Shown here one piece after another: positions 18,553 to 52,472 of a stretch of 64,000 nt of DNA (the stretch's first letter is position 1; each line of letters begins with the position of its first letter). The stretch is from assembly GCF_000024365.1 (NCBI RefSeq), contig NC_013235.1:4960001-5024000 (forward strand). Reading direction: 5' to 3'. The DNA is from Nakamurella multipartita DSM 44233 (GTDB taxonomy: Bacteria; Actinomycetota; Actinomycetes; Mycobacteriales; Nakamurellaceae). The position numbers and the translations under genes are program-made. The notes beneath the pieces are model-generated. The model was given only the letters and a program-made list of their open reading frames with translations, had not been told where the DNA came from and ran no database searches.

Positions 18553-19707
18553 ATGGAATCCGTCGCAACAGAGTCGGCGGCCGAGAGCGACTTGTTCCCC
18601 CAAATTCGGCCCTATCCGATGCTTCGAAGGACAGGGACTGTGATCAAAGCCGCTAAGGGTAGCAGCCATCGTGCTCGAATTCGCAAGCTTTGGATTGCTG
18701 GGATAGTCGCCTTGGCGCTCGTTGGTAGCACGATAGTCGTAGCGATGACACACAAGATGGCCTCCAGTTCTGGTGCGCAGTCCGAGGTGAGCCCTAGCGA
18801 GACCGAGACATCACAATCATCGGATGCGTCGGCTTCGTCACCGAGCCCATCATCATCATCACCGTCTAAGGAAGCACGCGGTGTTCCGCCCCCTTCCGCT
18901 GGATTTCCGCCAAATCTAGCGGGTTTTCCGTCACCGGAAAACACTGGTCCGCGATCGACGGGTCCTGAAATTGCTGGGCCGATAGCGACGTCAAGCTCAG
19001 GCCAAGTGATTGAAGACGTGACCGTGGACGGGAATATCACCATCCAACATGACGATGTTGTCGTACGCGATGTGAGAGTGATGGGCACCGGGAACTACAT
19101 GATTAACATCCGGCCAAAATCGGATGGCGCTTGCCCGGCCAATATTCGAATAGAGTTTGTTGAAATTGACGGCGAGAATGCTCCGTCCGAGGCAATAGCG
19201 GTCTACGGAAGTGAAGCGAACTGCGGATTCACCTTTGATCATAGTAAGATTGTCGACACTGGCCGCGGTATTCGTATGGGTAGCAATGTAGCCGTCTCGA
19301 ACTCTTACATCTACGTCAACAGGACATGGGACGGCGCGCATCGCACGGCATTGAGCGATAACGGCGGATCCAACCTGCAGATCAAAAATAATACGCTCTT
19401 CTGCGAACTTCCCGGGTGCTCGGCTGCGCTGAGCCTGTATGGAAGTCTAGCCCCTATTGAAAACGTTTTGATAGAGGGCAACTTGATGTCGACCACCGGA
19501 CAGTACTGTATTCACGGAGGATCTGTTTCCTCTAAGGACTTTCCAAGCGGGTCCAATATACGGATTGTCAATAACCGGTTCTCGACGTCGCTTGGTGCGC
19601 GCTGTGGGAAAGCGGGCCCCGTGGCAAGTTTCGATGACGGCCAGGACGGCAACGCGCTTAGTGGCAACGTTTGGCACGAGAATGGAGAGCCAGTCGGTAC
19701 CGAATAG
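18553..19707 (+). CDS. Membrane-anchored right-handed beta-helix protein (paralogue 1)
   Basis: 384 aa from ATG 18553 (ATG 18619 is an alternative; neither has a good ribosome-binding site). The N-terminus is basic, with one membrane helix at about 46-66 (LWIAGIVALALVGSTIVVAM), then a Ser/Pro-rich linker of about 60 residues. Residues about 150-384 form a beta-helix with short repeats such as VIEDVTVDGNITIQHDDVVV and RDVRVMGTGNYMINI, and paired Cys (CELPGC, YCIHGG). It is about half identical by eye to the C-terminal parts of the proteins at 24417 and 33605. The fold is that of polysaccharide lyases and epimerases, but no catalytic set can be assigned. Probably exposed on the cell surface. 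Confidence 0.75.
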   Translation: MESVATESAAESDLFPQIRPYPMLRRTGTVIKAAKGSSHRARIRKLWIAGIVALALVGSTIVVAMTHKMASSSGAQSEVSPSETETSQSSDASASSPSPSSSSPSKEARGVPPPSAGFPPNLAGFPSPENTGPRSTGPEIAGPIATSSSGQVIEDVTVDGNITIQHDDVVVRDVRVMGTGNYMINIRPKSDGACPANIRIEFVEIDGENAPSEAIAVYGSEANCGFTFDHSKIVDTGRGIRMGSNVAVSNSYIYVNRTWDGAHRTALSDNGGSNLQIKNNTLFCELPGCSAALSLYGSLAPIENVLIEGNLMSTTGQYCIHGGSVSSKDFPSGSNIRIVNNRFSTSLGARCGKAGPVASFDDGQDGNALSGNVWHENGEPVGTE

Positions 19708-24416: not shown

Positions 24417-25826
24417 GTGAAACGAGGACGTCTGATCGTGAGAAGTGTCGTACATCGCATAGGCCCCACCCGATGGCCGATAGTCGCTCTTGGAGTGGCA
24501 CTCGGCATGGTCGTACTGATGTTTGGGTTTACTCCAGCGTCAGCTGCTCCCGCGAGAGCCCAACACTCTGGCGACATCATCGTCGACGACGCGGGCGCTG
24601 TGGTCGAGAACCTAGACATCACGGGGTCGATCTTCGTCAAAGCCAACAACGTTACGATCCGCAACGTCACTGTTCGCTACAAGTACTACCACTCGATACG
24701 GATCGAGCCGGGCACCAAGGGTACGCGGATCTATGACACCGACGTCCAATGCCTCGGTGACCGCACCAACGGCGTGGTCTTCGGCGGCTATTACGCCGAG
24801 CGGGTCCACGTGAATGGATGCCGTCACGATTTCCTTTTCTCCGACGAGAATCCCGCCACTATTGTGGATAGCAGCATTGATGGAGTGCCGTATTCCAACG
24901 TATCCGGTACCACGAACTCATCGTCGACCGCCTCGACCACAAGGACATCGACGCCGACATCAAGCGCACCGACGACAACCAGCAGATCGACAACCAGTTC
25001 CCAAGCACCGAGCACTTCCGCGGCGTCTCCGGTCATTGATGCTGCGTGGCCCACCCCAGATTCCACCGGCCCACGACAGTCATCGCAACGCACCACCGGA
25101 AACCTCTCCTCATCCGCCGCCGGAGAACTCATCTCCCGCGTCACGGTCGCCGGCCGCCTCACAATCCGCCACGACAACGTCACCGTACGTGACGTGACAG
25201 TGAACGGAACCGGCACCTACATGATCCAAGTGCTCAAGAAATCAGACGGCACCTGCCCACGCAACGTCCGCATCGAGTACACCGAGATCAACGGCGCAAA
25301 CGCCGCAGAAAATGACATCCCGCTGTACTCACCAGACTGCGGATACGTCTTCGACCACGGCTACATCCACAACGTCGGCCGCACATCACGACTGGTCAAC
25401 GACACAACCATCAGCAACTCCTACGTCTTCTCGAACCGCACCGGATCCTCAGGCGCACACCGCGGCGCCGTCGGCACCAACGGCGGCAACAACAACCAGA
25501 TCATCAACAACGTGCTGATGTGCGAGGGCGTCGGCTGCTCGGCAGCCATCCCAATGTACGGAGACTTCATGCCCGTAACAGGCCTGCTAGTCCAACACAA
25601 CCTGCTAGCCACCACAGGCTCCTACTGCGCATACGGCGGCTCCGTCGACTCAAAGCCCTACCCGAACGGATCAAACATCCGCTTCATCGACAACCACTTC
25701 TCCACACGATACTTCCCAACCTGCGGACGATACGGCCCCATCATCGGCTTCGACAACGGAGTCCGCGGCAACGTCTGGACCGGCAACGTCTGGCACGAAA
25801 CCGGCCGAGCAGTCAGCGCCAACTAA
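24417..25826 (+). CDS. Secreted double beta-helix protein (paralogue 2)
   Basis: 469 aa from GTG 24417 (GTG 24438 is an alternative). Signal peptide: WPIVALGVALGMVVLMFGF then TPASAAPA. Residues about 45-150 are a first short beta-helix block (IIVDDAGAVVENLDITGSIF, VTIRNVTVRYKYYHSIRIEP) containing two Cys. Then come a Ser/Thr linker of about 45 residues and, from about residue 203, a second beta-helix domain with TCPRNVRIEYTEINGANAAE, two CxxxxC-like pairs and GNVWTGNVWHETG near the end. The second domain is encoded by an 807-bp block almost identical to one in the gene at 33605. There is no anchor, so it is probably released or bound to the glycan. A surface-polysaccharide binding or processing role is an inference. 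Confidence 0.78.
   Translation: MKRGRLIVRSVVHRIGPTRWPIVALGVALGMVVLMFGFTPASAAPARAQHSGDIIVDDAGAVVENLDITGSIFVKANNVTIRNVTVRYKYYHSIRIEPGTKGTRIYDTDVQCLGDRTNGVVFGGYYAERVHVNGCRHDFLFSDENPATIVDSSIDGVPYSNVSGTTNSSSTASTTRTSTPTSSAPTTTSRSTTSSQAPSTSAASPVIDAAWPTPDSTGPRQSSQRTTGNLSSSAAGELISRVTVAGRLTIRHDNVTVRDVTVNGTGTYMIQVLKKSDGTCPRNVRIEYTEINGANAAENDIPLYSPDCGYVFDHGYIHNVGRTSRLVNDTTISNSYVFSNRTGSSGAHRGAVGTNGGNNNQIINNVLMCEGVGCSAAIPMYGDFMPVTGLLVQHNLLATTGSYCAYGGSVDSKPYPNGSNIRFIDNHFSTRYFPTCGRYGPIIGFDNGVRGNVWTGNVWHETGRAVSAN
25020..25826 (+). repeat. 807-bp long direct repeat, copy A (beta-helix domain)
   Basis: Matches 34217-35023 over the same length with no gaps. Only three base differences were seen by eye; they change Ala to Thr, Ile to Thr and Val to Ala. 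It begins in the linker (GCGGCGTCTCCGGTCATTG) and ends at the stop codon. Confidence 0.9.
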
Positions 25827-26318: not shown

Positions 26319-28196
26319 GTGTCCCATGAGATCCTGCTCATCGCGGGTGGCTCAACTTCATCCGCACAGGATCATCGACGCCGGGTACTTGAGCACACTG
26401 CGTTACTCGTGCCGGGCGCAGACACATGGACCATCCATGTTAACAGCCACGTGAGCGTAGCGCTCGTCACCACCGTGCCAAGCAATGGCACCGTCGCTTA
26501 CGCCGATACCGACGAGCGTGGGAGACTCATCATTCTTGGCGCATCCGAGGATGCCGTCAAGGCAGCACGGGACGGTCGCCAGGAGAGCCATCTATATGGA
26601 GCCGAGGCCGGTCATATCAAGGTCACACTTGGCAGCAATGGAGAGTTGGACATCACCTGTGACGGGGTTGGCTCCCTACCCTCGTTCTGGTCGTCGAGTC
26701 AGGGTGAGTTCCTATTCGCCACTCACCTAGCCTCAATGGTTAGTCTCGGAGTGCGCCCGATTCCGGACGAGGCTGGCATGGTTGAGTACCTTGTAACATT
26801 GCATCCGTTGAATAATCGGACCGTCCTGCGAGACGTCACATTACTTCCCGGTGGCGGGCGGATAACTTGGGCACCGAACTCGCGCCCACGCTTGAGCGTC
26901 AATAGACTTTATCTTCCCTCGGACGACCGCATGAGCGATGATGGCGCCATTGCCGAATTTGAGACCGTTTGGTCAACCGTGATGGTCGATATGGCCGGGC
27001 GCATTGGTACGAAGAGAGCTGGTCTTGGCCTTAGTGGTGGACTGGACAGCCGAGCGATCGCGGGCGGATGCGTGGATCACGGATTCCGACCTGCGACGTT
27101 TACCTATGGCAACGTGCACACGAATGAAGGGCGGGTGTCTTCACATGTCGCCGAGGTTCTCGGGCTCGACCACACCATAATACCGGTGCGACAGGACTGC
27201 TTACTCAGGGACACGTCCAGGGCCGTTAGCCTACTCGACGGCGCGCATAGTCCAGCAGAGATGTACGAATTGTGGTTCTGCGATGTCCTTAGAAACTTTG
27301 CCGACGTCGTTATCAATGGTCTCGACGGAGATGTATTCTGGGGCAATGACAAGGCCCTAGGGGTCGTCGGGTCAGACGGCATTCTCCACGCCCAGCTTCG
27401 CCGGTATGGTCCGGAGCTTGCCAGGCTTCGAGAATTCCTCGCTCCGGACTTCGGAAATTGGGCTACGGATCAATTTACGCGGAGTCTAGACGAGTCTATG
27501 ACCGAGTGGGATCTGTCCTCGCGGGCTGACATGGTGGTATTCTGGCGAATTTACAACCGTCAGCTCAGGTGGGGGAACGCTCTCACTACCGCCCTACGGC
27601 GCTCGGGCCTACGAACAGAGCTTCCTTTCCGCGATTCTCGGTTCCTACGCTTCAGCGCCAGACTCACACCCGCACAGCGACGGAATGGTCAGCTCTACCT
27701 TGAAACGCACCGGAGACTCTTCTCGCAGATCTCAGGGATCGCGCGTAGTAGTGATGGGAACGCACCCGACCACCTGGATCATGTCTATTGGTCTGGAGAA
27801 TCCCCTTATACTAGACAACTGGCGCGTTTGGCAATGCGGCACCCAGTATCGGCGGCGCGACGAGCGGCTCGCCAACTCGAAAAAGTGGCTGTGAACAGAT
27901 CCCCCGATTGGTTGCCACTGGTTCCATGGAAGAATCGTAGCGTCTCGCGCTCTTCTATTTTTCCCGCGGATCTCTGGTTGAGGACCAGTCGCATCTACCG
28001 AGAACGACTGCTTGAATTGCTCGAATCGTCGCCAACTCTCTCCATCTTCTCATCGCTTGCCATAGACCAGTTCGCTGACAGCATCAGGAGTGGTCAGGCG
28101 AATAGTGGGGCACTCCTGCTCGCAAAGATTGCGACATTGCAGGCTTGGTTCGCGGATTACTCTCGGCGAGAGGCTTCCCGCCAATTGCTCACATGA
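26319..28196 (+). CDS. Asparagine-synthase-related protein without the catalytic Cys
   Basis: 625 aa from GTG 26319. The C-terminal half has the synthetase PP-loop AGLGLSGGLDSRAIAGG at about residue 235, and NGLDGDVFWGNDK in the place of the usual GEGADE segment. The N-terminal about 200 residues keep the shape of the glutaminase domain but start MSHEILLIAGG, so the Cys2 nucleophile is absent and glutamine hydrolysis is not expected. Such homologues make amide or ester bonds by adenylating a carboxylate and occur in both glycan and peptide clusters. No B1/B2 lasso genes or precursor lie beside it, so a glycan-linked job is more likely. The 3' end overlaps the convergent GT2 gene by 8 bp. Confidence 0.8.
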   Translation: MSHEILLIAGGSTSSAQDHRRRVLEHTALLVPGADTWTIHVNSHVSVALVTTVPSNGTVAYADTDERGRLIILGASEDAVKAARDGRQESHLYGAEAGHIKVTLGSNGELDITCDGVGSLPSFWSSSQGEFLFATHLASMVSLGVRPIPDEAGMVEYLVTLHPLNNRTVLRDVTLLPGGGRITWAPNSRPRLSVNRLYLPSDDRMSDDGAIAEFETVWSTVMVDMAGRIGTKRAGLGLSGGLDSRAIAGGCVDHGFRPATFTYGNVHTNEGRVSSHVAEVLGLDHTIIPVRQDCLLRDTSRAVSLLDGAHSPAEMYELWFCDVLRNFADVVINGLDGDVFWGNDKALGVVGSDGILHAQLRRYGPELARLREFLAPDFGNWATDQFTRSLDESMTEWDLSSRADMVVFWRIYNRQLRWGNALTTALRRSGLRTELPFRDSRFLRFSARLTPAQRRNGQLYLETHRRLFSQISGIARSSDGNAPDHLDHVYWSGESPYTRQLARLAMRHPVSAARRAARQLEKVAVNRSPDWLPLVPWKNRSVSRSSIFPADLWLRTSRIYRERLLELLESSPTLSIFSSLAIDQFADSIRSGQANSGALLLAKIATLQAWFADYSRREASRQLLT

Positions 28197-33604: not shown

Positions 33605-35023
33605 TTGCGTGCCGATGCGAGTTCGGGTACACGAACCAAGCTCAATCGACGTCATCTGAGATGTCTGCCCGCCTTTTCTTGCGCAGCGCTCATTTGGATC
33701 ATGTGCGTGACGGCTGGATCCGCAGACGCTGTCGCGCTGCACGAACGCCCCCTCACGAGTTCAGCCGGGATTCAGAACGAGCGTGGTGAACCGACCAACG
33801 GAGCGGTGGCTCTCAGAGCGGAAGTCAATGGCCGCTATGTAGTCGCAGAGAACGCCGGCCAATCGCCCCTGATCGCAAACCGCTCTGCGGTCGGCCCGTG
33901 GGAAAGCTTCGACATGATCCAGATCAATAGCACAGATATCGCGCTGCGCGCCCAAGCCAATCGCAAATACGTCTGCGCTGAGTCGGGCGGTGCGAACCCC
34001 TTGATCAGTAATCGTGACGCTGCCGGCGCTTGGGAAACATTTCAATTAATTCACAATTCCGACGGCACTGTAAGCCTAAGATCACGCGCCAATGGTCGCA
34101 TCGTCACGGCTGAAAGCGCCGGAGACGCACCCCTCATTGCGAATCGTACGGACGTTGGCCCTTGGGAAAAATTCACGCTTGTCCAGTTAGGCACTTCTCA
34201 GCCAAACCCCGGCGGAGCGGCGTCTCCGGTCATTGATGCTGCGTGGCCCACCCCAGATTCCACCGGCCCACGACAGTCATCGCAACGCACCACCGGAAAC
34301 CTCTCCTCATCCGCCGCCGGAGAACTCATCTCCCGCGTCACGGTCGCCGGCCGCCTCACAATCCGCCACGACAACGTCACCGTACGTGACGTGACAGTGA
34401 ACGGAACCGGCACCTACATGATCCAAGTGCTCAAGAAATCAGACGGCACCTGCCCACGCAACGTCCGCATCGAGTACACCGAGATCAACGGCACAAACGC
34501 CGCAGAAAATGACATCCCGCTGTACTCACCAGACTGCGGATACGTCTTCGACCACGGCTACATCCACAACGTCGGCCGCACATCACGACTGGTCAACGAC
34601 ACAACCATCAGCAACTCCTACGTCTTCTCGAACCGCACCGGATCCTCAGGCGCACACCGCGGCGCCGTCGGCACCAACGGCGGCAACAACAACCAGATCA
34701 TCAACAACGTGCTGATGTGCGAGGGCGTCGGCTGCTCGGCAGCCATCCCAATGTACGGAGACTTCATGCCCGTAACAGGCCTGCTAGTCCAACACAACCT
34801 GCTAGCCACCACAGGCTCCTACTGCGCATACGGCGGCTCCGTCGACTCAAAGCCCTACCCGAACGGATCAAACATCCGCTTCATCGACAACCACTTCTCC
34901 ACACGATACTTCCCAACCTGCGGACGATACGGCCCCATCACCGGCTTCGACAACGGAGTCCGCGGCAACGTCTGGACCGGCAACGTCTGGCACGAAACCG
35001 GCCGAGCAGCCAGCGCCAACTAA
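33605..35023 (+). CDS. Secreted fascin-like beta-trefoil plus beta-helix protein (paralogue 3)
   Basis: 472 aa from TTG 33605 behind GAGGGGGG. Signal peptide: CLPAFSCAALIWIMCVTAGS. Residues about 68-198 hold three repeats of about 43 residues with the pattern VALRAxxNxxYVxAExxG then PLIANRxxxGxWExF, a fascin/RICIN-like beta-trefoil that normally binds sugars. From about residue 205 follows the beta-helix domain, encoded by the 807-bp block shared with the gene at 24417. The stop codon (CTAA) is also the target duplication of IS1380 copy 2, so the gene escaped damage. A sugar-binding head on a common beta-helix tail fits a surface-glycan role. Confidence 0.8.
   Translation: MRADASSGTRTKLNRRHLRCLPAFSCAALIWIMCVTAGSADAVALHERPLTSSAGIQNERGEPTNGAVALRAEVNGRYVVAENAGQSPLIANRSAVGPWESFDMIQINSTDIALRAQANRKYVCAESGGANPLISNRDAAGAWETFQLIHNSDGTVSLRSRANGRIVTAESAGDAPLIANRTDVGPWEKFTLVQLGTSQPNPGGAASPVIDAAWPTPDSTGPRQSSQRTTGNLSSSAAGELISRVTVAGRLTIRHDNVTVRDVTVNGTGTYMIQVLKKSDGTCPRNVRIEYTEINGTNAAENDIPLYSPDCGYVFDHGYIHNVGRTSRLVNDTTISNSYVFSNRTGSSGAHRGAVGTNGGNNNQIINNVLMCEGVGCSAAIPMYGDFMPVTGLLVQHNLLATTGSYCAYGGSVDSKPYPNGSNIRFIDNHFSTRYFPTCGRYGPITGFDNGVRGNVWTGNVWHETGRAASAN
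34217..35023 (+). repeat. 807-bp long direct repeat, copy B (beta-helix domain)
   Basis: Partner of 25020-25826. It ends precisely at the stop codon; sequence beyond the stops and upstream of the linker is unrelated between the two genes. Confidence 0.9.
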
Positions 35024-41758: not shown

Positions 41759-42028
41759 ATGGAATCAAGAGTCGCTGCTGACATCAGACAGTTCATCATC
41801 AGTACGTTCCTGTTTGGGGATGAAGCACGCATGCCGGCCGATACTGACTCTCTTCTGGAGACCGGTACTATCGATTCCACGGGAATTCTCGAATTGATCG
41901 AATTTCTCGAATCAGAATATCTGTTCAGTGTCGCCGACAGTGAGACTGTGCCGGAGAACCTCGGCAGCGTGGCCAACCTGGTCCGATACGTCGGAGAGAA
42001 GGCTGGTCAGGCCGCTGACGTCAGCTGA
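41759..42028 (+). CDS. Acyl carrier protein
   Basis: 89 aa, ATG 41759. It has the standard ACP form: helix I VAADIRQFIISTFLFG, loop, then TGTIDSTGILELIEFLESEY with Ser40 in the DS phosphopantetheine motif, and a final SVANLVRYVGEK helix. A holo-ACP synthase gene 3.4 kb downstream would load the arm. Together with the AMP ligase at 43022 it should carry an activated acyl group for transfer to the glycan or to another envelope acceptor. Unlike the ACP-like protein at 17947, the canonical serine is present. Confidence 0.88.
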   Translation: MESRVAADIRQFIISTFLFGDEARMPADTDSLLETGTIDSTGILELIEFLESEYLFSVADSETVPENLGSVANLVRYVGEKAGQAADVS

Positions 42029-42709: not shown

Positions 42710-43021
42710 GCTGAATGCCGTCCCATACCGACGCGACCAAACTCTGGGCTCTCAGCAAACGCCGACCATGCCATCTACGTACCTTTCCGCAAGCTAGTTT
42801 CCCGGAGAGTCACTCGACCACTCCTTGTGAAGCACCTGACACTCACGGTGAGAACCTGGCGGCGCACGCCTCACCATTCGTCCGTTTCACCCCTATAGAG
42901 TATCCCCTCGTCACGATGATTGCCGACGATCGAAGAAGTCGGTATCCTGTGAGAGGGGTCACGAGCGTTGGCGTTCGCTATTGTCGCGCGTTGGCCGTTG
43001 AGGATCTTGGAGCGCATGTCG
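42710..43021. other. Divergent intergenic region
   Basis: Probably promoters for the acetyltransferase (-) and the ligase operon (+). GGAG at 43009-43012 is the likely ribosome-binding site of the ligase. Confidence 0.4.
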
Positions 43022-44575
43022 ATGATGAACACCGCAGAGTATCTGCTTTCGCGAGCTGATTCGAGCTCGATCGCCATAGTTGACGGTGAGTCGACATTCA
43101 CTTATGGACAGTTGCGCGCGACGGTTTCGCGATTGAGCGCCGACATTGCAGCTGTCGGCACCCGACCCGGAGAGCGCGTCGGGATCCTGGCCCGCAACTC
43201 GTTCTTCTGGGTTACGGCCTATCTCGCGACAATGTACTCCGGCCGAGTTGCCGTGCCCCTGCCGACCACCAATACGCCTGACCAGATGCGTCGTCACTCC
43301 GAGTTGGTCGATATTCAATCCTTCCTGGTTGATCGTCCTCAGATCCGACGATTCGCGACCGTGCTCGACCATAGCCCCACCATAGAGGATCCAGGTATCT
43401 ACGACGGCTCTGACAGCGACGAGTGGGCACCGGTTCCTGTCGAACCAGACTCGGATGCGGTATTCCAACTCACGTCAGGGACCACCGCAGCGCCCAAGGC
43501 CGTGCGGGTCACCCACGCCAACATCCAGGCGAATACCGCATCAATCATCGAGTATCTTCGACTCGATGCGGACGATCGCATGTTGGTCGTGTTGCCCTTC
43601 TCCTACTGCTTCGGAGCGTCGCTTCTCCACACCCACCTATGTGTGGGTGGCAGCGTAGCGCTGTGTCATAGCCTGACATTCCCGGAGACGGTGATCGACG
43701 CTATTGACACGCACGGGTGCACCGGATTTGCTGGAGTGCCCTCGACATACCAACTACTATTGCGCGCGAGCTCCCTTCGGCACCGTCGGCTACCTACCCT
43801 GCGCCACCTCCAGCAAGCCGGCGGAAAGCTACCACCGAATATCGTTGATGACCTCGTCAGAGCGCAACCGCATGCCCGCACGTTCGTTATGTATGGACAG
43901 ACGGAAGCGACTGCCCGACTCTCTTATCTCCCGCCTCAGGAGATCGAACGGCACCGCGGCTCGATCGGGAGGGGAATTGCCGGAGTCACCCTCCAGATAT
44001 TGGACAGCGACGACCACGAGGTCGCATTTGGCGAGGTGGGAGAACTCGTGGCGACCGGGCCAAGCATTACCAAAGGATACTGGAACGATCCGGTAGCAAC
44101 CGCAGAGAAGTATCGGGGCGGCGTTCTGCGCACAGGCGACCTCGCGACCGTCGATGAGGATGGGTTCATCTATATAGTCGACCGCCTTGGTGACTTCATC
44201 AAGTCATGGGGCTTCCGAGTATCGAGCCATGAGGTCGAAGATGCCGCCCTTCAAATCGCTGGTGTCTTTGCCGCGGCCGCTGTGGGAGTGCCTGATGAGG
44301 ACGCTGGCGAGGCGATCGCACTCTTTGTCGTCTGCGACTCGGAATCAGTCGCCGATGGTCAAATTCTAAGTGAGCTCAGAGGCCGACTGCCCAAGCACAT
44401 GGTACCGAGGTGGGTGCAGTCGCTGCCGGAGCTGCCACTAAATGCAAATGGAAAACCGATAAAAGCCGAACTTCGAGAGCTGTCGAGGTCCTTTCGGGAA
44501 CGGCCACCCGGGCCGCGCGAAACCGGACGCAGATCTGCCGCGTCATCAAATACCGCAGGGATGAGAGGTCGCTAG
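43022..44575 (+). CDS. AMP-forming acyl/amino-acid ligase (ANL superfamily)
   Basis: 517 aa from ATG 43022 (9 bp after GGAG; 43016 is also possible). The ANL core motifs are all present: FQLTSGTTAAPKAVRVTHAN (A3), YGQTEATARLSYLPP (A5), LRTGDLATVDEDGFIYIVDR (A7) and RLGDFIKSWGFRVSSHEVED (A8), with the catalytic Lys in PLNANGKPIKAEL (A10). It activates a carboxylate as adenylate and should load the ACP at 41759. The downstream start lies 2 bp after its stop, so SGNH and AcpS genes belong to the same operon. Substrate could be a short or branched acyl acid or an amino acid. Confidence 0.87.
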   Translation: MMNTAEYLLSRADSSSIAIVDGESTFTYGQLRATVSRLSADIAAVGTRPGERVGILARNSFFWVTAYLATMYSGRVAVPLPTTNTPDQMRRHSELVDIQSFLVDRPQIRRFATVLDHSPTIEDPGIYDGSDSDEWAPVPVEPDSDAVFQLTSGTTAAPKAVRVTHANIQANTASIIEYLRLDADDRMLVVLPFSYCFGASLLHTHLCVGGSVALCHSLTFPETVIDAIDTHGCTGFAGVPSTYQLLLRASSLRHRRLPTLRHLQQAGGKLPPNIVDDLVRAQPHARTFVMYGQTEATARLSYLPPQEIERHRGSIGRGIAGVTLQILDSDDHEVAFGEVGELVATGPSITKGYWNDPVATAEKYRGGVLRTGDLATVDEDGFIYIVDRLGDFIKSWGFRVSSHEVEDAALQIAGVFAAAAVGVPDEDAGEAIALFVVCDSESVADGQILSELRGRLPKHMVPRWVQSLPELPLNANGKPIKAELRELSRSFRERPPGPRETGRRSAASSNTAGMRGR

Positions 44576-44576
44576 C

Positions 44577-45440
44577 GTGACTAGACGGAGGAAACTTTGG
44601 CTGACCGCTGTTGCGGGGGTGGTCGCTATTGGCCTAGCCGGCGCATACCTTGTCCGGCCAGCGTCGTCGGTCGTACGCCAAGAGGCGTACCAGGTGCCGA
44701 CGGCAACTGGTAGCCAGCTCGAACGGGCGGCAAGCTTGAAGATTTTCTTCGCGCACCAGTCGGTCGGTAGAAATATGATTGAAGCGGTTCCCGCGGTCTA
44801 CGCCGCGGCCGGTATTCAACCCCCAGAAATTATCGCCTCTGACCAGGCTCAACTTGCAAGCTCCCATGGATATATTCAGCACGTCCTGGTCGGAAGGAAT
44901 GGTGATCCACTCGGTAAGATCAACGAATTCGACCGGCTTATTCGCTCGGGAATTGGGAGCCAGGTCGACGTTGCTGCTCTCAAGCTGTGCTATGTCGACT
45001 TCCGTAGCGGAGACGACACGGAGAGAGTATTCGAAGCCTACAGCAACACGTTAGCCGCCCTTCAGCGGGACTTTCCATCAGTTACGTTCCTGGCAATCAC
45101 TGTGCCGCTCACCACCGAACAGGGAATCCTCGGTCGGACAAAAGAGCGCCTCGGCTTGGGCGACCCCTACGGTCCTCAACACAACGTCACCCGCGAAACC
45201 TTCAACGCGAAGATCCGGGCTGAGTACGCGGATACCGGGCGGCTGTTCGATATCGCAGCCATGCAGTCGACGTCCTCAGACGGGATTCGTCTCGTTCGCA
45301 CCTTTGCAGGTGCTGAATATTTTTCAATGGAGGAGGCATCTGCGAAAGATCCAGGGCATCTGAACTCGACGGGCTCCGCGCTTGCTACGAGCGCCTTTCT
45401 CAGGACGATCGCCGGCGCCGCGGCGGCTAGCGCTCAGTGA
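44577..45440 (+). CDS. Membrane-anchored SGNH-like hydrolase/acyltransferase
   Basis: 287 aa from GTG 44577. One N-terminal membrane helix (LWLTAVAGVVAIGLAGAYLV) anchors an outside domain. LKIFFAHQSVGRNMIEAVP near residue 55 replaces the usual GDS block with an HQSVG variant; later blocks are VAALKLCYVDFRSGDD, VTFLAITVPLT and DPGHLNSTGSALATSAF with the terminal D-x-x-H-x-N. This is the SGNH/GDSL fold with altered nucleophile context. Located between the ligase and AcpS, it may transfer the ACP-carried group onto the glycan outside the membrane, or remove it. The stop overlaps the AcpS start by GTGA. Confidence 0.7.
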   Translation: MTRRRKLWLTAVAGVVAIGLAGAYLVRPASSVVRQEAYQVPTATGSQLERAASLKIFFAHQSVGRNMIEAVPAVYAAAGIQPPEIIASDQAQLASSHGYIQHVLVGRNGDPLGKINEFDRLIRSGIGSQVDVAALKLCYVDFRSGDDTERVFEAYSNTLAALQRDFPSVTFLAITVPLTTEQGILGRTKERLGLGDPYGPQHNVTRETFNAKIRAEYADTGRLFDIAAMQSTSSDGIRLVRTFAGAEYFSMEEASAKDPGHLNSTGSALATSAFLRTIAGAAAASAQ

Positions 45441-45841
45441 ACGTCGCCATCGGGACCGACATCGTCGAGGTTTCTCGAGTGGCACGACTGCTTGCTAGCG
45501 GCGAGCAGCGCTTCATGCGCCACTGGTTCACCGACGAGGAAATCACATATTGCACGTCAAAGGCATTCCCCGCCAGGCATCTGGCAGCACGGCTCGCAGT
45601 GAAGGAATCCATGCTCAAGGCGTTGCGGTGGCGGTGGGCCAGTGCAGCGCGGTGGCCGGAGATCAGCGTCATGCCAAGTCCTGACGGTGCGCCTCTCGTT
45701 GAGGTTGCCGGTTCAATCGCTGAAGTCGTCCGGGTGCGCGGATTGCGCTGGACGGTGTCAATGGCGCATGAACGGGAATGGGCAACGGCGACGGTCGTCA
45801 TGTGGAGCTCCAGCATTGGTGGGACGCCGATGGCGACCTAG
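45437..45841 (+). CDS. acpS: Holo-ACP synthase (4'-phosphopantetheinyl transferase)
   Basis: 134 aa from GTG 45437 inside the preceding stop (GTGA). AcpS signature residues: IGTDIVEVSRVARLLA (Asp for Mg), WFTDEEITYCTSKAFPARHL and ARLAVKESMLKAL (Glu). It moves the phosphopantetheine arm from CoA to the apo-ACP serine; the ACP at 41759 is the obvious substrate. A dedicated copy inside a decoration operon shows that this module is self-sufficient. Length and motifs are normal for AcpS; it may be additional to a housekeeping copy elsewhere. Confidence 0.88.
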   Translation: MNVAIGTDIVEVSRVARLLASGEQRFMRHWFTDEEITYCTSKAFPARHLAARLAVKESMLKALRWRWASAARWPEISVMPSPDGAPLVEVAGSIAEVVRVRGLRWTVSMAHEREWATATVVMWSSSIGGTPMAT

Positions 45842-46009: not shown

Positions 46010-46282
46010 ATGAGCATGACCGAGGAAACGATACGCATTCGACCAGACGATATTGTCTGGCAAGACCTCGACGGGGAATTGGTCATCCTGGACTTGAAGC
46101 GATCGGCCTACCTGGCCACAAATGCCACCGGCACCCTCCTGGCAAAGTATCTGACCGAACCTCGAACATTGGCCGAGCTGGCAGACCACTTGGTGGCCGA
46201 GTTCGGGATCGATCGGGAACTGGCGCTCGCCGACGCGCAGGCATTCGTCACGCAACTCCGAGAGAAGCATCTGCTTGCCTAG
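46010..46282 (+). CDS. Lasso-peptide B1: PqqD-like leader-binding protein (RRE)
   Basis: 90 aa from ATG 46010, preceded by an AAGAAGGGGG ribosome-binding stretch. The frame upstream to 45899 is not protein-like. The PqqD/RRE winged-helix core is visible as IVWQDLDGELVILDLKRSAY, LATNATGTLLAKYLT and LADHLVAEFGIDRELALAD. In lasso clusters this protein binds the precursor leader and presents it to the B2 protease. It starts a short + strand pair with the ABC transporter 36 bp downstream, and converges on the - strand A-C-B2-kinase operon. Confidence 0.88.
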   Translation: MSMTEETIRIRPDDIVWQDLDGELVILDLKRSAYLATNATGTLLAKYLTEPRTLAELADHLVAEFGIDRELALADAQAFVTQLREKHLLA

Positions 46283-46318
46283 TATCAAGGTCTCGTTCCG
46301 AATGACGCGCTTCCGCCG

Positions 46319-48184
46319 ATGAGCAACGACGACGAACCAGCGCCACTCGACCCCATCGAACTACGTCTGCAAGCGAAAGCTGGTCGTCGCAGCGCTGGCC
46401 GCCTTGGGTCACTTGTCCACAAATCGACACGGCTAATGTGGCAGGCAGGCCCTCGCAAGTCAATCGTCCTTACCTGCATACAGGTCATCAACGCAGCGCT
46501 ACTTGCAGCCCAGGTCGTAGTCGTTGAGCGACTGGTTTCTGTGGTCATCGACCTGTCCTCCGGCGCAACCATGCGGGATCTGCTTCTGCCACTCGTGGCA
46601 TTTGCGGTGTTGACCGCGATCACCACCGTCATCGGCTCGGTCCAAACGCAGATAGGCCGATTGCTAGCAGAATCAGTGGCGCGTCTGATGTGGCGCTCGG
46701 TGTCCGGTGTGGCAGCAGCTGTGACGCTACGTCATTTCGAGGCTCCCGACTTCTACGACCTCTTGCAACGGGTGCAAAGCAATGCCACGCGCCCCTTCCA
46801 GGTGACTCAGGCCCTTTTGCGCATTCTTGGTGGCCTGACCGCGACCGTCGGTGTCGGTGCCGTACTTTTCGCGATCCATCCCATCCTCGTCCCGCTACTG
46901 GCGGTTGGGGGTCTGCCGCTGATCCTTACCAACCGTGCCGAGAGCAGGCTCGAGTTCAAATTCGCCGTCGACCAAACCACTAACCAACGCGAACGCGCTT
47001 ATCTCACTTTCTTACTGACTGGGAGAGTCGAAGCCAAGGAGATTCGCGCATTCGACTTGGGTGGACAATTCGCTGATAGACTGGACCGCCGACACGACGA
47101 GTACATCACGGCCATGCACGCGCATGTTCGTCATCGGCTGCGGCTCAATCTCGTCGGCAATCTGCTGAGCGCGATCCTCCTGAGCTGCACCATGATCATC
47201 GTTGCCTGGTTCATCGCAGATGGCCAAATCGACGTTAGTCAAGCCAGCGCCGCGATCGTGGCGATTCGCATGCTACAAGGCCAACTCCAGACGCTGCTCG
47301 GCGGAGTCCAAACCATCTTCGAGTCGGGCTTGTTCTTGGATGATGTCGAGTTGTTCCTTCGACTCGGCGCTGAGGCAGAGCGCGATGAGGACGGCGCACA
47401 ACCGCCGTCAGAATTCGAGACAATCACGGTCGATAATCTCGGATTCCGATACCCTGGAAGCACCCAGCACGCACTCCGCAATGTGAATATGCATATCCGG
47501 TCCGGATCACTTGTGGCTTTGGTCGGAGAGAATGGCTCGGGAAAGACGACATTGGCCAAAATCCTAGCTGGCCTCTACGACTGCGAGGAAGGGGCCGTGC
47601 GATGGGACGGTGTTGATACTCGCGAGTTCTCGAGAAAGGCTATCCGATCGCGGGTGGCGGTCATCTTTCAGGACTTCGCACGTTACGCATTTACGGCGAG
47701 AGAGAACATTGCTACCGGAGATGGTGCGCATCCCATCAATGATGATCGGGTGGTTGCGGCGGCGCGATCTGCCGGGGCCGACGGATTCCTGTCTCGCCTC
47801 CCGAAGCAATATCATACTATTCTTTCCAGACTGTTTCGTGGAGGACGGGACCTCTCCGGCGGACAATGGCAGCGTGTCGCTATCGCCCGAGCTTACTATC
47901 GAGACGCACCTCTGGTCATTCTCGACGAACCAACTGCATCGCTCGATGCTCGTGCTGAGCACGACCTCTTCGCGTCGTTGCGGGCAGTCCTGAAGGGCAG
48001 AACCGCCATATTTGTTTCCCACCGCTTTTCGACGGTCCGTACGGCAGATCTCATCGTTGTGCTGCACGCCGGGCAGATTGTTGAGTCCGGATCTCACGAC
48101 GAACTAATGGCACGGGGCGGCCGATATGCCGAGCTCTTCCGTCTTCAGGCTGCCGCTTACCTAGCAGATGTCGACGAGAATTAG
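46319..48184 (+). CDS. Lasso-peptide export ABC transporter (fused permease-ATPase)
   Basis: 621 aa, ATG 46319. Six hydrophobic segments in the first 320 residues (for example IVLTCIQVINAALLAAQVVV and LLSAILLSCTMIIVAWFIA) form the permease; the ATPase follows with Walker A LVGENGSGKTTLAK at about 400-413, signature LSGGQWQRVAIARA at about 512 and Walker B LVILDEPTASLD at about 533. This is the D component typical of lasso operons, exporting and often giving self-immunity to the peptide. Its stop lies 50 bp from the convergent kinase gene. Confidence 0.9.
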   Translation: MSNDDEPAPLDPIELRLQAKAGRRSAGRLGSLVHKSTRLMWQAGPRKSIVLTCIQVINAALLAAQVVVVERLVSVVIDLSSGATMRDLLLPLVAFAVLTAITTVIGSVQTQIGRLLAESVARLMWRSVSGVAAAVTLRHFEAPDFYDLLQRVQSNATRPFQVTQALLRILGGLTATVGVGAVLFAIHPILVPLLAVGGLPLILTNRAESRLEFKFAVDQTTNQRERAYLTFLLTGRVEAKEIRAFDLGGQFADRLDRRHDEYITAMHAHVRHRLRLNLVGNLLSAILLSCTMIIVAWFIADGQIDVSQASAAIVAIRMLQGQLQTLLGGVQTIFESGLFLDDVELFLRLGAEAERDEDGAQPPSEFETITVDNLGFRYPGSTQHALRNVNMHIRSGSLVALVGENGSGKTTLAKILAGLYDCEEGAVRWDGVDTREFSRKAIRSRVAVIFQDFARYAFTARENIATGDGAHPINDDRVVAAARSAGADGFLSRLPKQYHTILSRLFRGGRDLSGGQWQRVAIARAYYRDAPLVILDEPTASLDARAEHDLFASLRAVLKGRTAIFVSHRFSTVRTADLIVVLHAGQIVESGSHDELMARGGRYAELFRLQAAAYLADVDEN

Positions 48185-48234
48185 TGCTGACAACATCTTC
48201 ACAGGCACACGGCCAGCAACAATCGATAGTGAGA

Positions 48235-49176
48235 TTACGAGCCGAATATCCGGACCTCGTCCGGCCTAGCGGCCGCGTCGGCGATAGTGCTGGCGATATC
48301 GTTGCGAAAGGGCGGTCCCCAGGGAACCTTGGCGCCAAAAACCGGAATCGTGTCAGCCACCGCGCTTGCTAGTCCGAACATCGTGCGAATGACTTTTGGA
48401 TCCTGCCAGCCCAAGAGTCGCGGATACCGCATCAAGGAGACATGTGCCTCCGGCTTGCTTAGGCGGAACACCTCCAGCACGCTTTCCCGGTTGGGAAGTG
48501 GAATGAAGATGGCGTCCAGGCGGCGCTCGGACATCGTGACGTGCTCGGAACGCAAGGGAACCACTAGTCGTGCGTCCGCGCTCGTCCGGAATGATCCAAC
48601 CGCCAAGGCTCGCGCCGCCTCGCGTAGTCTCACTTCGGGAGACCCGACCGCGACAGTTACCGGACGCTGACAAACGACCGGTAGCACGTCGTCGGTCAAG
48701 AGTTCGGCGCCCTGTTGGCACATCAGCGCCGCCAGTGTCGACTTTCCCTGACCCGACCGACCCAGGAATGCGATGGTTCGACCGTCCGCGCACGTGACAG
48801 CGCTCGAGTGCATCACGGGAATATCATCGAGATAGAGGAGGAGAGCTGGGATGGTCCCGGTGGCCATCACCTGCGCCATACCTAGGTCAGCATCGGGCAG
48901 CAGCGCAATCCTAATACTGTTTCTCTCAGCGTTGACGAAGATGTCGCACAGGCCATAGACCCTCATGGTCAATTCACCATCGGGCAAGCGTCCAACCGAG
49001 TACCAGCGGCGACCACGCGCTTGGTAATCGAGCAGTATCTTTCCCGGCGGCAGTTCAGCTGACTGGGAGGCCAGCTCCTCCAGTCGCAACCGGAGGTTGG
49101 GCTTGTCGGAATCAGTTGGCAGATGCAGTGGAAAGTCGGCATCTACGGCCCAGCCGTACATTCGGTAGGTGGTCAT
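48235..49176 (-). CDS. HPr-kinase-like lasso-peptide tail kinase
   Basis: 313 aa from ATG 49176, overlapping the B2 stop as ATGA; the longer frame to 49206 overlaps B2 needlessly. Walker A GRSGQGKST at residues about 139-147, the HPrK capture histidine region VMHSSAV at about 122-128, and LLTDD at about 159-163 match the C-terminal kinase core of HprK. In paeninodin- and pseudomycoidin-type clusters such kinases phosphorylate the C-terminal Ser of the lasso precursor. The precursor here ends in Ser, which agrees. Last gene of the precursor operon. Confidence 0.85.
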   Translation of the reverse strand: MTTYRMYGWAVDADFPLHLPTDSDKPNLRLRLEELASQSAELPPGKILLDYQARGRRWYSVGRLPDGELTMRVYGLCDIFVNAERNSIRIALLPDADLGMAQVMATGTIPALLLYLDDIPVMHSSAVTCADGRTIAFLGRSGQGKSTLAALMCQQGAELLTDDVLPVVCQRPVTVAVGSPEVRLREAARALAVGSFRTSADARLVVPLRSEHVTMSERRLDAIFIPLPNRESVLEVFRLSKPEAHVSLMRYPRLLGWQDPKVIRTMFGLASAVADTIPVFGAKVPWGPPFRNDIASTIADAAARPDEVRIFGS

Positions 49177-49664
49177 GAGACGGTCGCTGACTTTGCGGAC
49201 ACCCATTGCGCGTTGAAGTCTAGAGACGCATCTGGATCCAGGCTGACCCCGTCGATCTCCAGCCAGGCATGCGCCTTGAATCCGTCAGCGGTGCGCAGAA
49301 CTCCAATCCGCACGGCGTGATCTCTGCGGCGCATCAGGCATGCGCCGATAATTGAGCGCCGCAGGCATGTCGAATTAAAGGGACCGATATCTAGGACCCG
49401 CCAGGCGATCGCTAGAGCACGGCGCTCCCGGTCAGTTAGGCGAAGTTCGGCATGCGAACTATCTGGCACGCCCGGCCCGCCTTCGAGCCGTACCCGAATC
49501 CTCAATAGATTCGCCGTCCGCTGAATGGCGATCGTTCGGAGAAGGAGTTCAACCATCGGCGCCAATACTGCAGCGCGCATGGCGACCATAATATCTGAAG
49601 CTGTTAGTCTGCGCAGCCGCGAAAGGACACGGCGGAACGAGAGTACTCGAGTCACGGCGAACAT
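49173..49664 (-). CDS. Lasso-peptide B2 leader protease (transglutaminase-like)
   Basis: 163 aa, starting 13 bp inside the end of the cyclase gene. The B2 fold is marked by an N-terminal hydrophobic/basic region and the catalytic triad Cys100 (FNSTCLRRSIIGACLMRRR), His132 (KAHAWLEIDG) and Asp143 (VSLDPDAS). The segment RVLDIGPFNSTCLRRS is typical. With B1 it removes the leader before cyclisation. Length is normal and no lesion is visible. Confidence 0.9.
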   Translation of the reverse strand: MFAVTRVLSFRRVLSRLRRLTASDIMVAMRAAVLAPMVELLLRTIAIQRTANLLRIRVRLEGGPGVPDSSHAELRLTDRERRALAIAWRVLDIGPFNSTCLRRSIIGACLMRRRDHAVRIGVLRTADGFKAHAWLEIDGVSLDPDASLDFNAQWVSAKSATVS

Positions 49665-50890
49665 CTCAGAGAGTCTATTTCACTGGCGTGCTCGGCGGTC
49701 CAGGCGACATGAAGAAGGAAATCAGCCTGTGGGGCGGGAGATTCGCTGAGCCACTCCGCACGTAGCTTGTCGGCGTGAATTCGAGTCGTATCGATGCCTG
49801 ATCCAGTCCAGGACTTCGCAAATTCGCGCTCCCCCGGACCCCATCGCGTTTCATTGAAGGATGCCTTCGTCGTGCGGGAAATGACCTGTCGAGGTAGGAG
49901 ATCACCCACGAGATAGTCAAAGGTGAGGCTTCGACTGCCAAAACCAAACGGACCGCCCTCTCGAGCCAGCGCCGCGAGGAACGCCGGCTCAACAAACGGT
50001 GTGATCGGGCGGAGATCTAGCTCAGCAATCGTGGATTTGACATTTGTAAACAGCACTTGGGCGCCAGGCGACTGCAGTACCGTCCGCGTTCGGATATCCC
50101 ATCGCAAAGGATCCTTCTGGTGCAATGCGGAGCGCAATTCTTCGGCTCCAGCGTCGGTATACCAGGATGGTACTTCGATCGACCACCGTCGCCGAAGCAC
50201 AGCGCGTCTGCTTGCTCGAAGTACACTCCGGCGCGGTGGCCAGTTATGGGTCAGCTTCCTGAGCGGCGCTGCACGCCCTCCGGCGACGACGTTATCGCCA
50301 CCCTCCCCGCTGACGAACGACGAACCTGACTCCAATCCGGCTAGCAGCGCTCCCTGCAATTGGGCGGCTTCCGGCCAAACGAGCCCATGTCGCCGCATGG
50401 CAGTCGTGGCTGTCTCTCCAAGCAACCGCTGTTCGTGGTGGATTCGGACGACAATCCGCTCGGTCATCCCGAGATAATTCAGCACGAGCTCCTGCCATTG
50501 GGCCTCGTCAGAACGCGGTGCATGGGGGTATACCGCAGTCACTGGAATCGGGGGCGGCAGTCCATCCCGACGGGCGACATGAGCCGCGACTGCGAGCAGG
50601 GCCGATGAATCGCGTCCACCCGAAAATGCCACATAGCATGGGCTCGCCACGAGCGCACCTCGAAGCGCATCCTCCATGACTTGCCTGGCGGTCCTGGAGT
50701 CGGTGGGTCGGCTGACCACAGGCGGTCGCCCTCGGTCCTCGAACGGAAACGCGAACTGTTCCTCGACCGAGGACAGCCTGGCAAATGTGACCGCGTCCGG
50801 CGCTGTCAAGGATCTCCCCCAATCGACACTGATGGTGGTGGCGGACGTTCGTCTGCCACCACCATCAGCTTCGGTCGACATGCCAGTCAT
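49652..50890 (-). CDS. Lasso-peptide cyclase (asparagine-synthetase-like, short form)
   Basis: 412 aa, ATG 50890, 7 bp after the precursor stop (an ATG at 50881 is also possible). The PP-loop VAFSGGRDSSALLAVAAHVA is at about 87-106, and FVSGEGGDNVVAGGRAAPLR, LTFDYLVGDLLPRQVISRTT and FNETRWGPGEREF follow as in lasso C proteins. It should adenylate the ring acid side chain and join it to the Gly1 amine. The usual N-terminal glutaminase-like domain of about 200 residues is nearly absent, so this is a short-form cyclase; the first 60 residues are a variable stub. Confidence 0.88.
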   Translation of the reverse strand: MTGMSTEADGGGRRTSATTISVDWGRSLTAPDAVTFARLSSVEEQFAFPFEDRGRPPVVSRPTDSRTARQVMEDALRGALVASPCYVAFSGGRDSSALLAVAAHVARRDGLPPPIPVTAVYPHAPRSDEAQWQELVLNYLGMTERIVVRIHHEQRLLGETATTAMRRHGLVWPEAAQLQGALLAGLESGSSFVSGEGGDNVVAGGRAAPLRKLTHNWPPRRSVLRASRRAVLRRRWSIEVPSWYTDAGAEELRSALHQKDPLRWDIRTRTVLQSPGAQVLFTNVKSTIAELDLRPITPFVEPAFLAALAREGGPFGFGSRSLTFDYLVGDLLPRQVISRTTKASFNETRWGPGEREFAKSWTGSGIDTTRIHADKLRAEWLSESPAPQADFLLHVAWTAEHASEIDSLRCSP

Positions 50891-50897
50891 GCTGGCG

Positions 50898-51047
50898 TCA
50901 CGAGCCTACCGAAGGATCACCCCACGGATCGGGGATCGAGTGTCCCCAGAACTGGAAGGTGTCGCGTTCCGGACCCCACTGGATCTGACCCAGAGTGAGG
51001 TTCTCGACCGATCCCAGCTCGGTGATGACGGGCGAGACGTATGCCAT
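50898..51047 (-). CDS. Lasso-peptide precursor, 49 aa
   Basis: ATG 51047 with a very strong ribosome-binding site (GGGGGGAGGTG at 51052-51062), stop at 50898. The leader, residues 1-19, contains Y3-x-x-P6-x-I8-x3-G12-x5-T18-x, which is the conserved RRE-recognition pattern of actinobacterial lasso leaders, with Thr at -2. The core, residues 20-49, starts GQIQWGPERD: Gly20 is core position 1 and Glu27 is position 8, allowing an 8-residue macrolactam ring. The 22-residue tail is rich in aromatic residues and Pro (FQFWGHSIPDPWGD) and ends ...SVGS, with a C-terminal Ser as target for the kinase. First gene of the A-C-B2-K operon. It is too short for usual ORF cutoffs. Confidence 0.85.
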   Translation of the reverse strand: MAYVSPVITELGSVENLTLGQIQWGPERDTFQFWGHSIPDPWGDPSVGS

Positions 51048-51338
51048 GATTCACCTCCCCCCAGATCACGAACGGACTCACGCGAACCGGATCAAAGGGT
51101 CAGTCCGGCGGCGCAATGCAAAGGGTAGCGGCTGGGTGGCCAACCTACGCGCCGGATCACCCGATGTCACCAGCACATCACCCATTCGGTGACGCAACGT
51201 GGCCAGACCCGCGTCAAAGTCGTCGTTATGGTTGGCAACTGCTCACGTCTGATCACGATCATCGGGCGGTCGAGCCTTTCGGCCGCACGGCGCACAAGGA
51301 CAGCACGCTGGTGGACGGAGTGGGGTGCCACATGTCCG
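51048..51338 (-). promoter_or_regulatory. Leader region upstream of the lasso precursor
   Basis: 291 bp between the nucleotidyltransferase stop and the precursor start, with no frame of its own. It is expected to hold the precursor promoter; only the ribosome-binding site GGGGGGAGGTG (51052-51062) is clear. Confidence 0.5.
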
Positions 51339-52472
51339 CTACCTCTGACTCGAAGCCTCGACCGTGCGCAGAAAGCGGTCATAGGTCGCTGCGGAGGCGG
51401 GGACTCGGCCATGGTCGACTTGCGCATCACGCCGAACCCGGTCGGCGACGCCGAGAGCGGCATGCTGAACGGCGACGGAGAGCGTTGCCCGGAATGAAGC
51501 CCGCACGGCCCGGGCACCAAAGCGACTGAGGTCGTGGACGTGGCGCACCTGCGCAACCGGGGCGACCCGGTCGACAGCTGAGAACATCCCCCGCAGAGGG
51601 GCACTAATCCCAAGGGAATCGCTCAGGCCTTCGGGCAGTGGCGTTCCTAGATTCGCTTGAGCGCGATGTAGAACGAGCCAGACCTGAGCCTGGGCTCGCC
51701 ATTGATGAGCCCGTTCGATCACCGTCTCCCAGTTGGTGACACTTCTCGCCACTGAATCCGTATCAACCAGTTGCAGCAGGCGAGCGGAGCCATCAAGCGC
51801 CGCATGGAGACATGTGTGGACGACCGTGTCCTCAGGGTTCAGCGTTGGAACGCTGGTGAGACCCACCGTCGCGGTCACGCGGCGTGAGAGGAGTCCGTCA
51901 GTCTGGATATCGAAGAGATCACGCCGGACGGCGCTATTGATCATCGACCAATGCAGGTCGAGCTGCAGTCCATGAGGACTAAGCCAATGCATTTCACCCG
52001 GCGGCCGGTCACGGGACAACATGTCGTCATAGTCCAAGAGCCGCCAGCCAGCCGCGCGCAGTCGCTCGCACGCGTCACGGAGCGCGCGCGGGTGTATCAA
52101 CACATCGATGTCTGTGAAAGTTCGGAGTCCTGGCACAGGGTGGTGGTTCATGGAGAGGACCAGGCCCTTGAACGTCAGCCATGGCAATCCATCCAAGGCT
52201 TGCCTGATCGAACCCAATGTCAGCGTGGCCTTGAAAGTGGTCGCCAGCGCGCGATCACGATCCTCTCGGACCCGCCCCGCGACGACGTCATCGAGGCCGC
52301 GAGTCGCTACATATGCCAGGGGCGCGATCCGGTGCAGCCGCGCAGCGTCCACGAACTCGTCAATCTCCGTGGCGGACAGACCACTAGGTGGCCATGTCGC
52401 ACGACACGCGGACAGCAGCGCGCGGGTGACTGACGGGTTCCGGGATGAAGCTCGACGGCGCCGAACGGCCAT
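51339..52472 (-). CDS. Nucleotidyltransferase-family protein of the lasso cluster
   Basis: 377 aa, start at 52472. It matches the NTP_transf_5 type: LPWLTFKGLVLSMNHHPVPG, then LRTFTDIDVLIHPRALRDAC with the DxD metal pair, AAGWRLLDYDDMLSRDR, GLQLDLHWSMINSAVRRDLF and EDTVVHTCLHAALDGSARLL. This family is often found beside lasso kinases; in the pseudomycoidin cluster the homologue PsmN glycosylates the phosphorylated tail. A similar tail modification is inferred here. It is transcribed in the same direction as the precursor, 291 bp upstream, so it may have its own promoter. Confidence 0.82.
   Translation of the reverse strand: MAVRRRRASSRNPSVTRALLSACRATWPPSGLSATEIDEFVDAARLHRIAPLAYVATRGLDDVVAGRVREDRDRALATTFKATLTLGSIRQALDGLPWLTFKGLVLSMNHHPVPGLRTFTDIDVLIHPRALRDACERLRAAGWRLLDYDDMLSRDRPPGEMHWLSPHGLQLDLHWSMINSAVRRDLFDIQTDGLLSRRVTATVGLTSVPTLNPEDTVVHTCLHAALDGSARLLQLVDTDSVARSVTNWETVIERAHQWRAQAQVWLVLHRAQANLGTPLPEGLSDSLGISAPLRGMFSAVDRVAPVAQVRHVHDLSRFGARAVRASFRATLSVAVQHAALGVADRVRRDAQVDHGRVPASAATYDRFLRTVEASSQR

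Follow-up and report, generated by a model that had tools for sequence, protein, structure and literature searches.

The genome of Nakamurella multipartita DSM 44233 contains a lasso peptide gene cluster in a stretch of 64,000 nucleotides (nt) (NC_013235.1, positions 4,960,001 to 5,024,000; hereafter the window). The cluster is real and intact and is of a known kind, in which a peptide kinase (K) and a nucleotidyltransferase-like protein (N) accompany the lasso biosynthesis enzymes. Its cyclase belongs to a lineage in which the acidic residue that closes the ring has apparently moved to position 10 of the core peptide.

Gene content and organization of the cluster

A preliminary description of the window, made from the sequence alone, had proposed a set of lasso genes, here designated A, C, B2, K, N, B1, and D. 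All of them were present where they had been placed, and their catalytic motifs were intact (Table 1). The window contains a complete lasso peptide gene set, and the product is very probably a lasso peptide. This part of the preliminary description holds, as does its proposal of a tail-modified product (see below). It had missed the conserved Asp10 residue of the precursor, on which our analysis centers, and its view of the gene layout as unusual was not borne out.

Table 1. Genes of the lasso peptide cluster and their family matches
Gene	Product	Length (residues)	Positions in the window	Strand	Family match (E value)
B1	PqqD-like leader-binding protein (RiPP [ribosomally synthesized and posttranslationally modified peptide] recognition element)	90	46010..46282	+	PF05402 (1e-15); NF033530/NF033536 partial
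D	ABC exporter	621	46319..48184	+	PF00005, ABC_tran (8e-33)
K	HPr-kinase-like peptide kinase	323	48235..49206	-	PF07475 (0.005, weak)
B2	Leader peptidase, transglutaminase-like fold	163	49173..49664	-	NF033537, lasso_biosyn_B2 (5e-14), and PF13471 (3e-13), both over cut-off
C	Lasso cyclase, asparagine-synthetase-like	412	49652..50890	-	PF00733, Asn_synthase (7e-11)
A	Precursor	49	50898..51047	-	NF033521, lasso_leader_L3 (6e-5), over domain cut-off
N	NTP_transf_5 family nucleotidyltransferase-like tailoring protein	377	51339..52472	-	PF14907 (9e-45)

The whole genome, a single contig of 6,060,298 bases, was searched for the B2 Pfam family and for the N family, and each was matched once, at the lasso locus. 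The matches of B1 to the lasso PqqD models were partial and below the cut-offs of these models; the protein is 43 to 66% identical to the B1 proteins of most actinobacterial kinase clusters. In an alignment of B2 with its relatives, from which the row of one Georgenia cluster (L139) was left out because it was in the wrong frame, the catalytic Cys and His were conserved. The cyclase contains the ATP-binding motif SGGRDSS and lacks a glutaminase domain.

The genes of the minus strand are closely spaced. A strong ribosome-binding sequence, GGGGGAGGTGA, immediately precedes the ATG of A, 7 nt separate A from C, and C overlaps B2 by 13 nt. Translation of K probably starts at the 11th codon (49176), an ATG overlapping the stop codon of B2 as ATGA. 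D and K are convergent, their matched ends lying 57 nt apart. The 291-nt gap between N and A was inspected for a second precursor, and no lasso leader was found there.

Two features mentioned in the preliminary description do not distinguish this cluster from its relatives. The cyclase had been described as short, but its length is normal, most members of the family comprising about 390 to 460 residues. The arrangement of the two strands recurs among 56 kinase clusters, D converging on K in 29 of them and B1 being in addition located on the opposite strand in 19. Both were therefore rejected as special traits.

Position of the predicted ring acid in the precursor and its relatives

The precursor consists of the leader MAYVSPVITELGSVENLTL followed by the 30-residue core GQIQWGPERDTFQFWGHSIPDPWGDPSVGS. 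Its landmarks are Tyr-17, Pro-14, Ile-12, and Thr-2 in the leader, which thus displays the YxxPxL motif and the penultimate Thr of lasso precursors, and Gly1, Glu8, Asp10, and Ser30 in the core, which continues after Gly1 with Gln2-Ile3 and ends in PSVGS. The YxxPxL motif at positions -17 to -12 is a published landmark defining residue 1 (PMC10368454).

Relatives were collected from 395 genomes of the class, from 84,980 species genomes (64 loci), and from further actinobacterial groups, and most of the kinase-containing loci retrieved also carry lasso genes. To find precursors, the surroundings of the cyclase genes were searched with a pattern, which may have missed some; a few chance reading frames among the hits were excluded. 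For both cyclase and kinase, the nearest relatives of the window proteins come from the clusters of Cellulosimicrobium marinum (L051) and, next, of Georgenia (L136 to L139 and L172). Proteins of these clusters are 48 to 55% (C), 56 to 60% (D), and 57 to 66% (B1) identical to those of the window, their cores also contain Gly1 and Asp10, and in the Georgenia clusters a B1-D pair likewise converges on A-C-B2-K.

In a maximum-likelihood tree of the C proteins alone (66 rows), the window cyclase fell within a 14-member clade (support 92/95), all of whose cyclases are associated with a precursor containing Asp10. Within this clade, the window cyclase belongs to an inner set of 8 cyclases (support 100/99) and is the sister of the C. 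marinum cyclase (support 100/98). Since precursors were not used for the construction of the tree, the association of the clade with Asp10 is independent of it.

Comparison of the cores revealed that Gly1 and Asp10 are both present in all 16 distinct cores of the clade, which contain an acidic residue at position 7 in six cases, at position 8 in three, and at position 9 in none. Conversely, the 40 distinct cores associated with other cyclases contain an acidic residue at position 9 in 35 cases and at position 10 in none. The first 14 residues of the six intact Georgenia cores contain no acidic residue other than Asp10, positions 7 to 9 being devoid of acid (examples are GKLASGPKKD, GRQTPGPKKD, GKVPTGPQRD, GKLAWGPQKD, and GSQFLAAYTD), unlike the window core with its Glu8. 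The core from L137 (8400-8519), which diverges near its end and lacks a stop codon at the usual place, was counted for its first residues only. An acidic residue at position 7, 8, or 9 is a criterion for lasso precursors; the window core has Glu8, yet the acid conserved throughout the clade is Asp10.

The leader register is unchanged in the clade, since Tyr is located at -17 from Gly1 in 13/13 of its precursors and in 42/43 of the others, the single exception being a misparsed leader. Gly6 is present in 26 of the 40 cores of the relatives predicted to form 9-residue rings, and its distance to Thr-2 is kept in the nearest relatives of the window, in which the extra residue falls between Gly6 and the Asp. 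Together, the conservation of Gly1 and Asp10, the unshifted leader register, and the spacing of Gly6 favor a ring closed between Gly1 and Asp10, and we consider it somewhat probable, on the basis of these sequence comparisons, that the window product is a natural 10-residue macrolactam. The natural lasso rings characterized so far comprise 7 to 9 residues (PMC8498205, PMC10368454, and PMC13352647, the last being a 2026 review that lists structurally characterized rings of 7, 8, and 9 residues). The conserved positions thus suggest a ring one residue larger than any characterized natural lasso ring. There is an engineered precedent, a fusilassin analogue with a 10-residue ring made in vitro (PMC8498205); no other 10-residue lasso ring was found in the literature examined. 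The shift of the ring acid to position 10 is clear in this lineage and has apparently not been reported before. The lineage is distributed among Actinomycetes, including Nakamurella, Georgenia, Cellulosimicrobium, Propionicicella, and others, and the chances are about even that lasso peptides with a 10-residue Gly1-Asp10 ring are the natural products of the lineage as a whole.

Several observations weigh against a 10-residue ring. The bootstrap support of the 14-cyclase clade is 92 rather than 95, and a change in ring size by one residue usually lowers production in known systems (PMC13352647). The window core has an acid at position 8 (Glu8), as do the cores of Cellulosimicrobium and of the L177 cluster (Asp8), so that an 8-residue ring is possible in those three. 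In this alternative, Gly1 would be joined to Glu8 in an ordinary ring of the type found in microcin J25 and caulosegnin I, Asp10 would have some other function as a conserved residue of the loop, and the cluster would be a plain new member of the paeninodin and pseudomycoidin kind. Glu8 is indeed located in a G..GPE context and within the accepted range of 7 to 9. However, the Georgenia cores of the same subclade carry Lys, Gln, Met, or Tyr at position 8 and no acid before Asp10, whereas the other subclade is acidic at position 7 and not 8, leaving Asp10 as the only acid common to the 16 cores. At the usual site, position 9, the relatives have Asp in 38 of 43 cases and Glu in none, so that the use of Glu as the acceptor would be unusual. 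We regard the 8-residue ring, and with it the classification of the cluster as a plain new member of that kind, as unlikely.

A further observation of this type comes from a distant group of clusters (L148, L149, and L152), in which the motif GKQFG.KSD is found at two distances from Thr-2, so that the cleavage site in the superfamily may not be tied to Thr-2 in every case. If B2 cut the window precursor one residue later (LTLG|Q), Thr would be at -3 and the product would have a 9-residue ring (Gln1-Asp9 in the new numbering), as in the sister clades; the variable Thr-to-Asp spacing next to a constant GKQFG.KSD motif in the distant group is in line with such a shift. The constant position of Tyr-17 relative to Gly1 argues against it, as do the invariance of Gly1, next to a residue that varies (K, R, L, Q, S, W, or G), and the unchanged distance between Gly6 and Thr. 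A shifted cleavage is in our opinion improbable, slightly more so than the 8-residue ring.

A Gly1-Asp10 ring, if confirmed, would change the rule that natural lasso rings contain 7 to 9 residues and would make cyclases available for building larger threaded rings. It would also mean that searches demanding an acid at positions 7 to 9 miss a family, and it would provide a natural pairing of 9- and 10-residue cyclases for finding what sets ring size. The Georgenia precursors offer a clean test of ring size, because Asp10 is the sole candidate there.

Two other groups of precursors were observed in the course of this comparison. The distant clusters mentioned above (L148:9496-9642, L149:10751-11081, and L152:5979-6311) have weak kinase matches, and in their precursors the Asp occupies core position 10 or 11; a single cluster may differ internally in where the leader is cut or in how large the ring is. 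A trio of related cyclases is associated with the precursors GYPQNCKYGHGAD (L176:9459-9638, minus strand), LPIQACKYGYGAD (L179:8293-8472, minus strand), and EPIQACKLGFGSD (L180:8327-8512, minus strand), which have no acid at core positions 7 to 10, a conserved Asp13, Cys6, and a Cys near the C terminus. Asp13 hints at a still larger ring or at another cut site.

Kinase, nucleotidyltransferase-like protein, and probable modification of the tail

Membership of K in the lasso kinase family is based on its 32 to 49% identity to the kinases of other lasso loci, beside the weak Pfam match; the K profile also matched HPr kinase structures weakly. The residues of its site (H133, K155, D172, and D173) are invariant in 18 homologues. 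In N, the Asp triad of nucleotidyltransferases (D121, D123, and D172) and K102 are invariant in 15 sequences, and a gene of this family is located near the cyclase gene in 40 of the 56 kinase clusters. The structure model of N (mean predicted local distance difference test [pLDDT] score, 83) shares its fold with small nucleotidyltransferases of the toxin and antibiotic types, MenT1, LnuA, and ANT(2'') among them; its match to a toxin nucleotidyltransferase (5e-5) and the weaker ones to LnuA and ANT(2'') indicate the fold class only. Comparison of the sequences with solved structures gave no match for N and weak matches at best for the cyclase.

A C-terminal Ser is present in all 40 distinct cores of cyclases outside the clade, and the window core ends in Ser30. 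No recognizable lasso-like precursor with a terminal Ser was found in kinase-free control clusters of the same class, a set of about 10 precursors that is biased to few families. This contrast supports the tail-modified product proposed in the preliminary description. Kinases of this kind are reported to act on the linear precursor by phosphorylating its C-terminal Ser, and PsmN is reported to lead to the presence of a hexose on the phosphate, either by direct glycosylation or by nucleotidylation before a host glycosyltransferase acts (PMC9266682). Phosphorylation of the window peptide at Ser30 is likely. Two findings count against this assignment. The branch containing the window kinase may not be specific for a terminal Ser, since among the nearest clusters 7 of 8 (L136, L137, L138, L139, L172, L051, and L177) encode cores ending in -GSR, the window alone ending in -GS. 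A carboxypeptidase for removal of the terminal Arg was not found among the scanned flanking open reading frames, which encode housekeeping proteins, members of glycosyltransferase families, or proteins with no match. In addition, BsfK, a related kinase, phosphorylates Ser3 of its core substrate (PMC10368454); a Ser at this position is absent from the window core, leaving Ser30 as the likely target.

We infer the chemical steps of the pathway from what the sequences show, namely gene content, intact motifs, the conservation of Gly1 and Asp10, the terminal Ser, and the leader register. B1 would bind the leader via Tyr-17, Pro-14, and Ile-12, and B2 would cut it after Thr-2/Leu-1. K would phosphorylate the C-terminal Ser30 on the linear precursor, and N could then attach a nucleotidyl or sugar-bearing group to the phosphate. 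The cyclase is expected to adenylate the side chain of Asp10 and to couple this side chain to the Gly1 amino group, thereby trapping the tail in a 10-residue macrolactam, and D would export the product.

Genomic surroundings and comparison with known systems

The locus is located in a polysaccharide region rich in insertion sequences. Among 17 genomes of the genus, 1 has K and 2 have a B2-family match over cut-off; this rarity and the surroundings would fit a gain of the cluster from outside the genus. The same observations could be taken as signs of a silent or decayed cluster that yields no lasso product in the host, together with the lack of a detected sigma-70-like promoter and the missing C-terminal Arg of the relatives, which could signal loss. 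This is very unlikely, because the seven frames are open, their motifs are intact, and their translational coupling is tight; the promoter scan covered one promoter type only.

Upstream of B1, on the same strand, are genes for an acyl-carrier-like protein (41759-42028), an AMP-dependent acyl ligase related to an exosortase-associated family (42968-44575), and an AcpS-type phosphopantetheinyl transferase (45437-45841). They probably belong to the polysaccharide locus and were, for this reason, not adopted as peptide-acylating enzymes. About 18 kb away from the lasso cluster, within the polysaccharide region, a gene next to glycosyltransferase genes encodes a 625-residue asparagine-synthase-like protein (26319-28196, plus strand; PF00733, 5e-12). 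Three secreted-looking proteins with a similar C-terminal domain are encoded on the plus strand between insertion sequences (18553-19707, 24417-25826, and 33605-35023), this domain being nearly identical in the last two; one of the three was compared with Pfam and gave no match.

No description of the window's cluster was found among open-access titles on lasso peptides in Nakamurella, Georgenia, or Cellulosimicrobium. The cluster belongs to the paeninodin and pseudomycoidin kind, with K and N. It shares with the paeninodin cluster of Paenibacillus dendritiformis (PadeK/ThcoK kinases) the A, C, B1, B2, and D genes, an HPr-kinase-like K with a His-Lys-Asp-Asp site, and a core ending in Ser. Unlike the paeninodin cluster, it is actinobacterial, consists of two convergent operons, encodes N, and specifies a 30-residue core with a predicted Gly1-Asp10 ring. 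The psm cluster of Bacillus pseudomycoides (PsmK and PsmN) similarly combines a kinase and a nucleotidyltransferase-like protein with a lasso core ending in Ser, although it comes from another phylum and has another gene order; the window N was assigned to the pseudomycoidin type by Pfam family and gene neighborhood. The bsf cluster of Bradymonas sediminis (BsfK and BsfN) also has discrete B1, B2, C, D, K, and N genes, but BsfK phosphorylates Ser3 of a core preceded by a leader with Ile-2, whereas the window precursor has Thr-2 in the leader and Gln2-Ile3 in the core.

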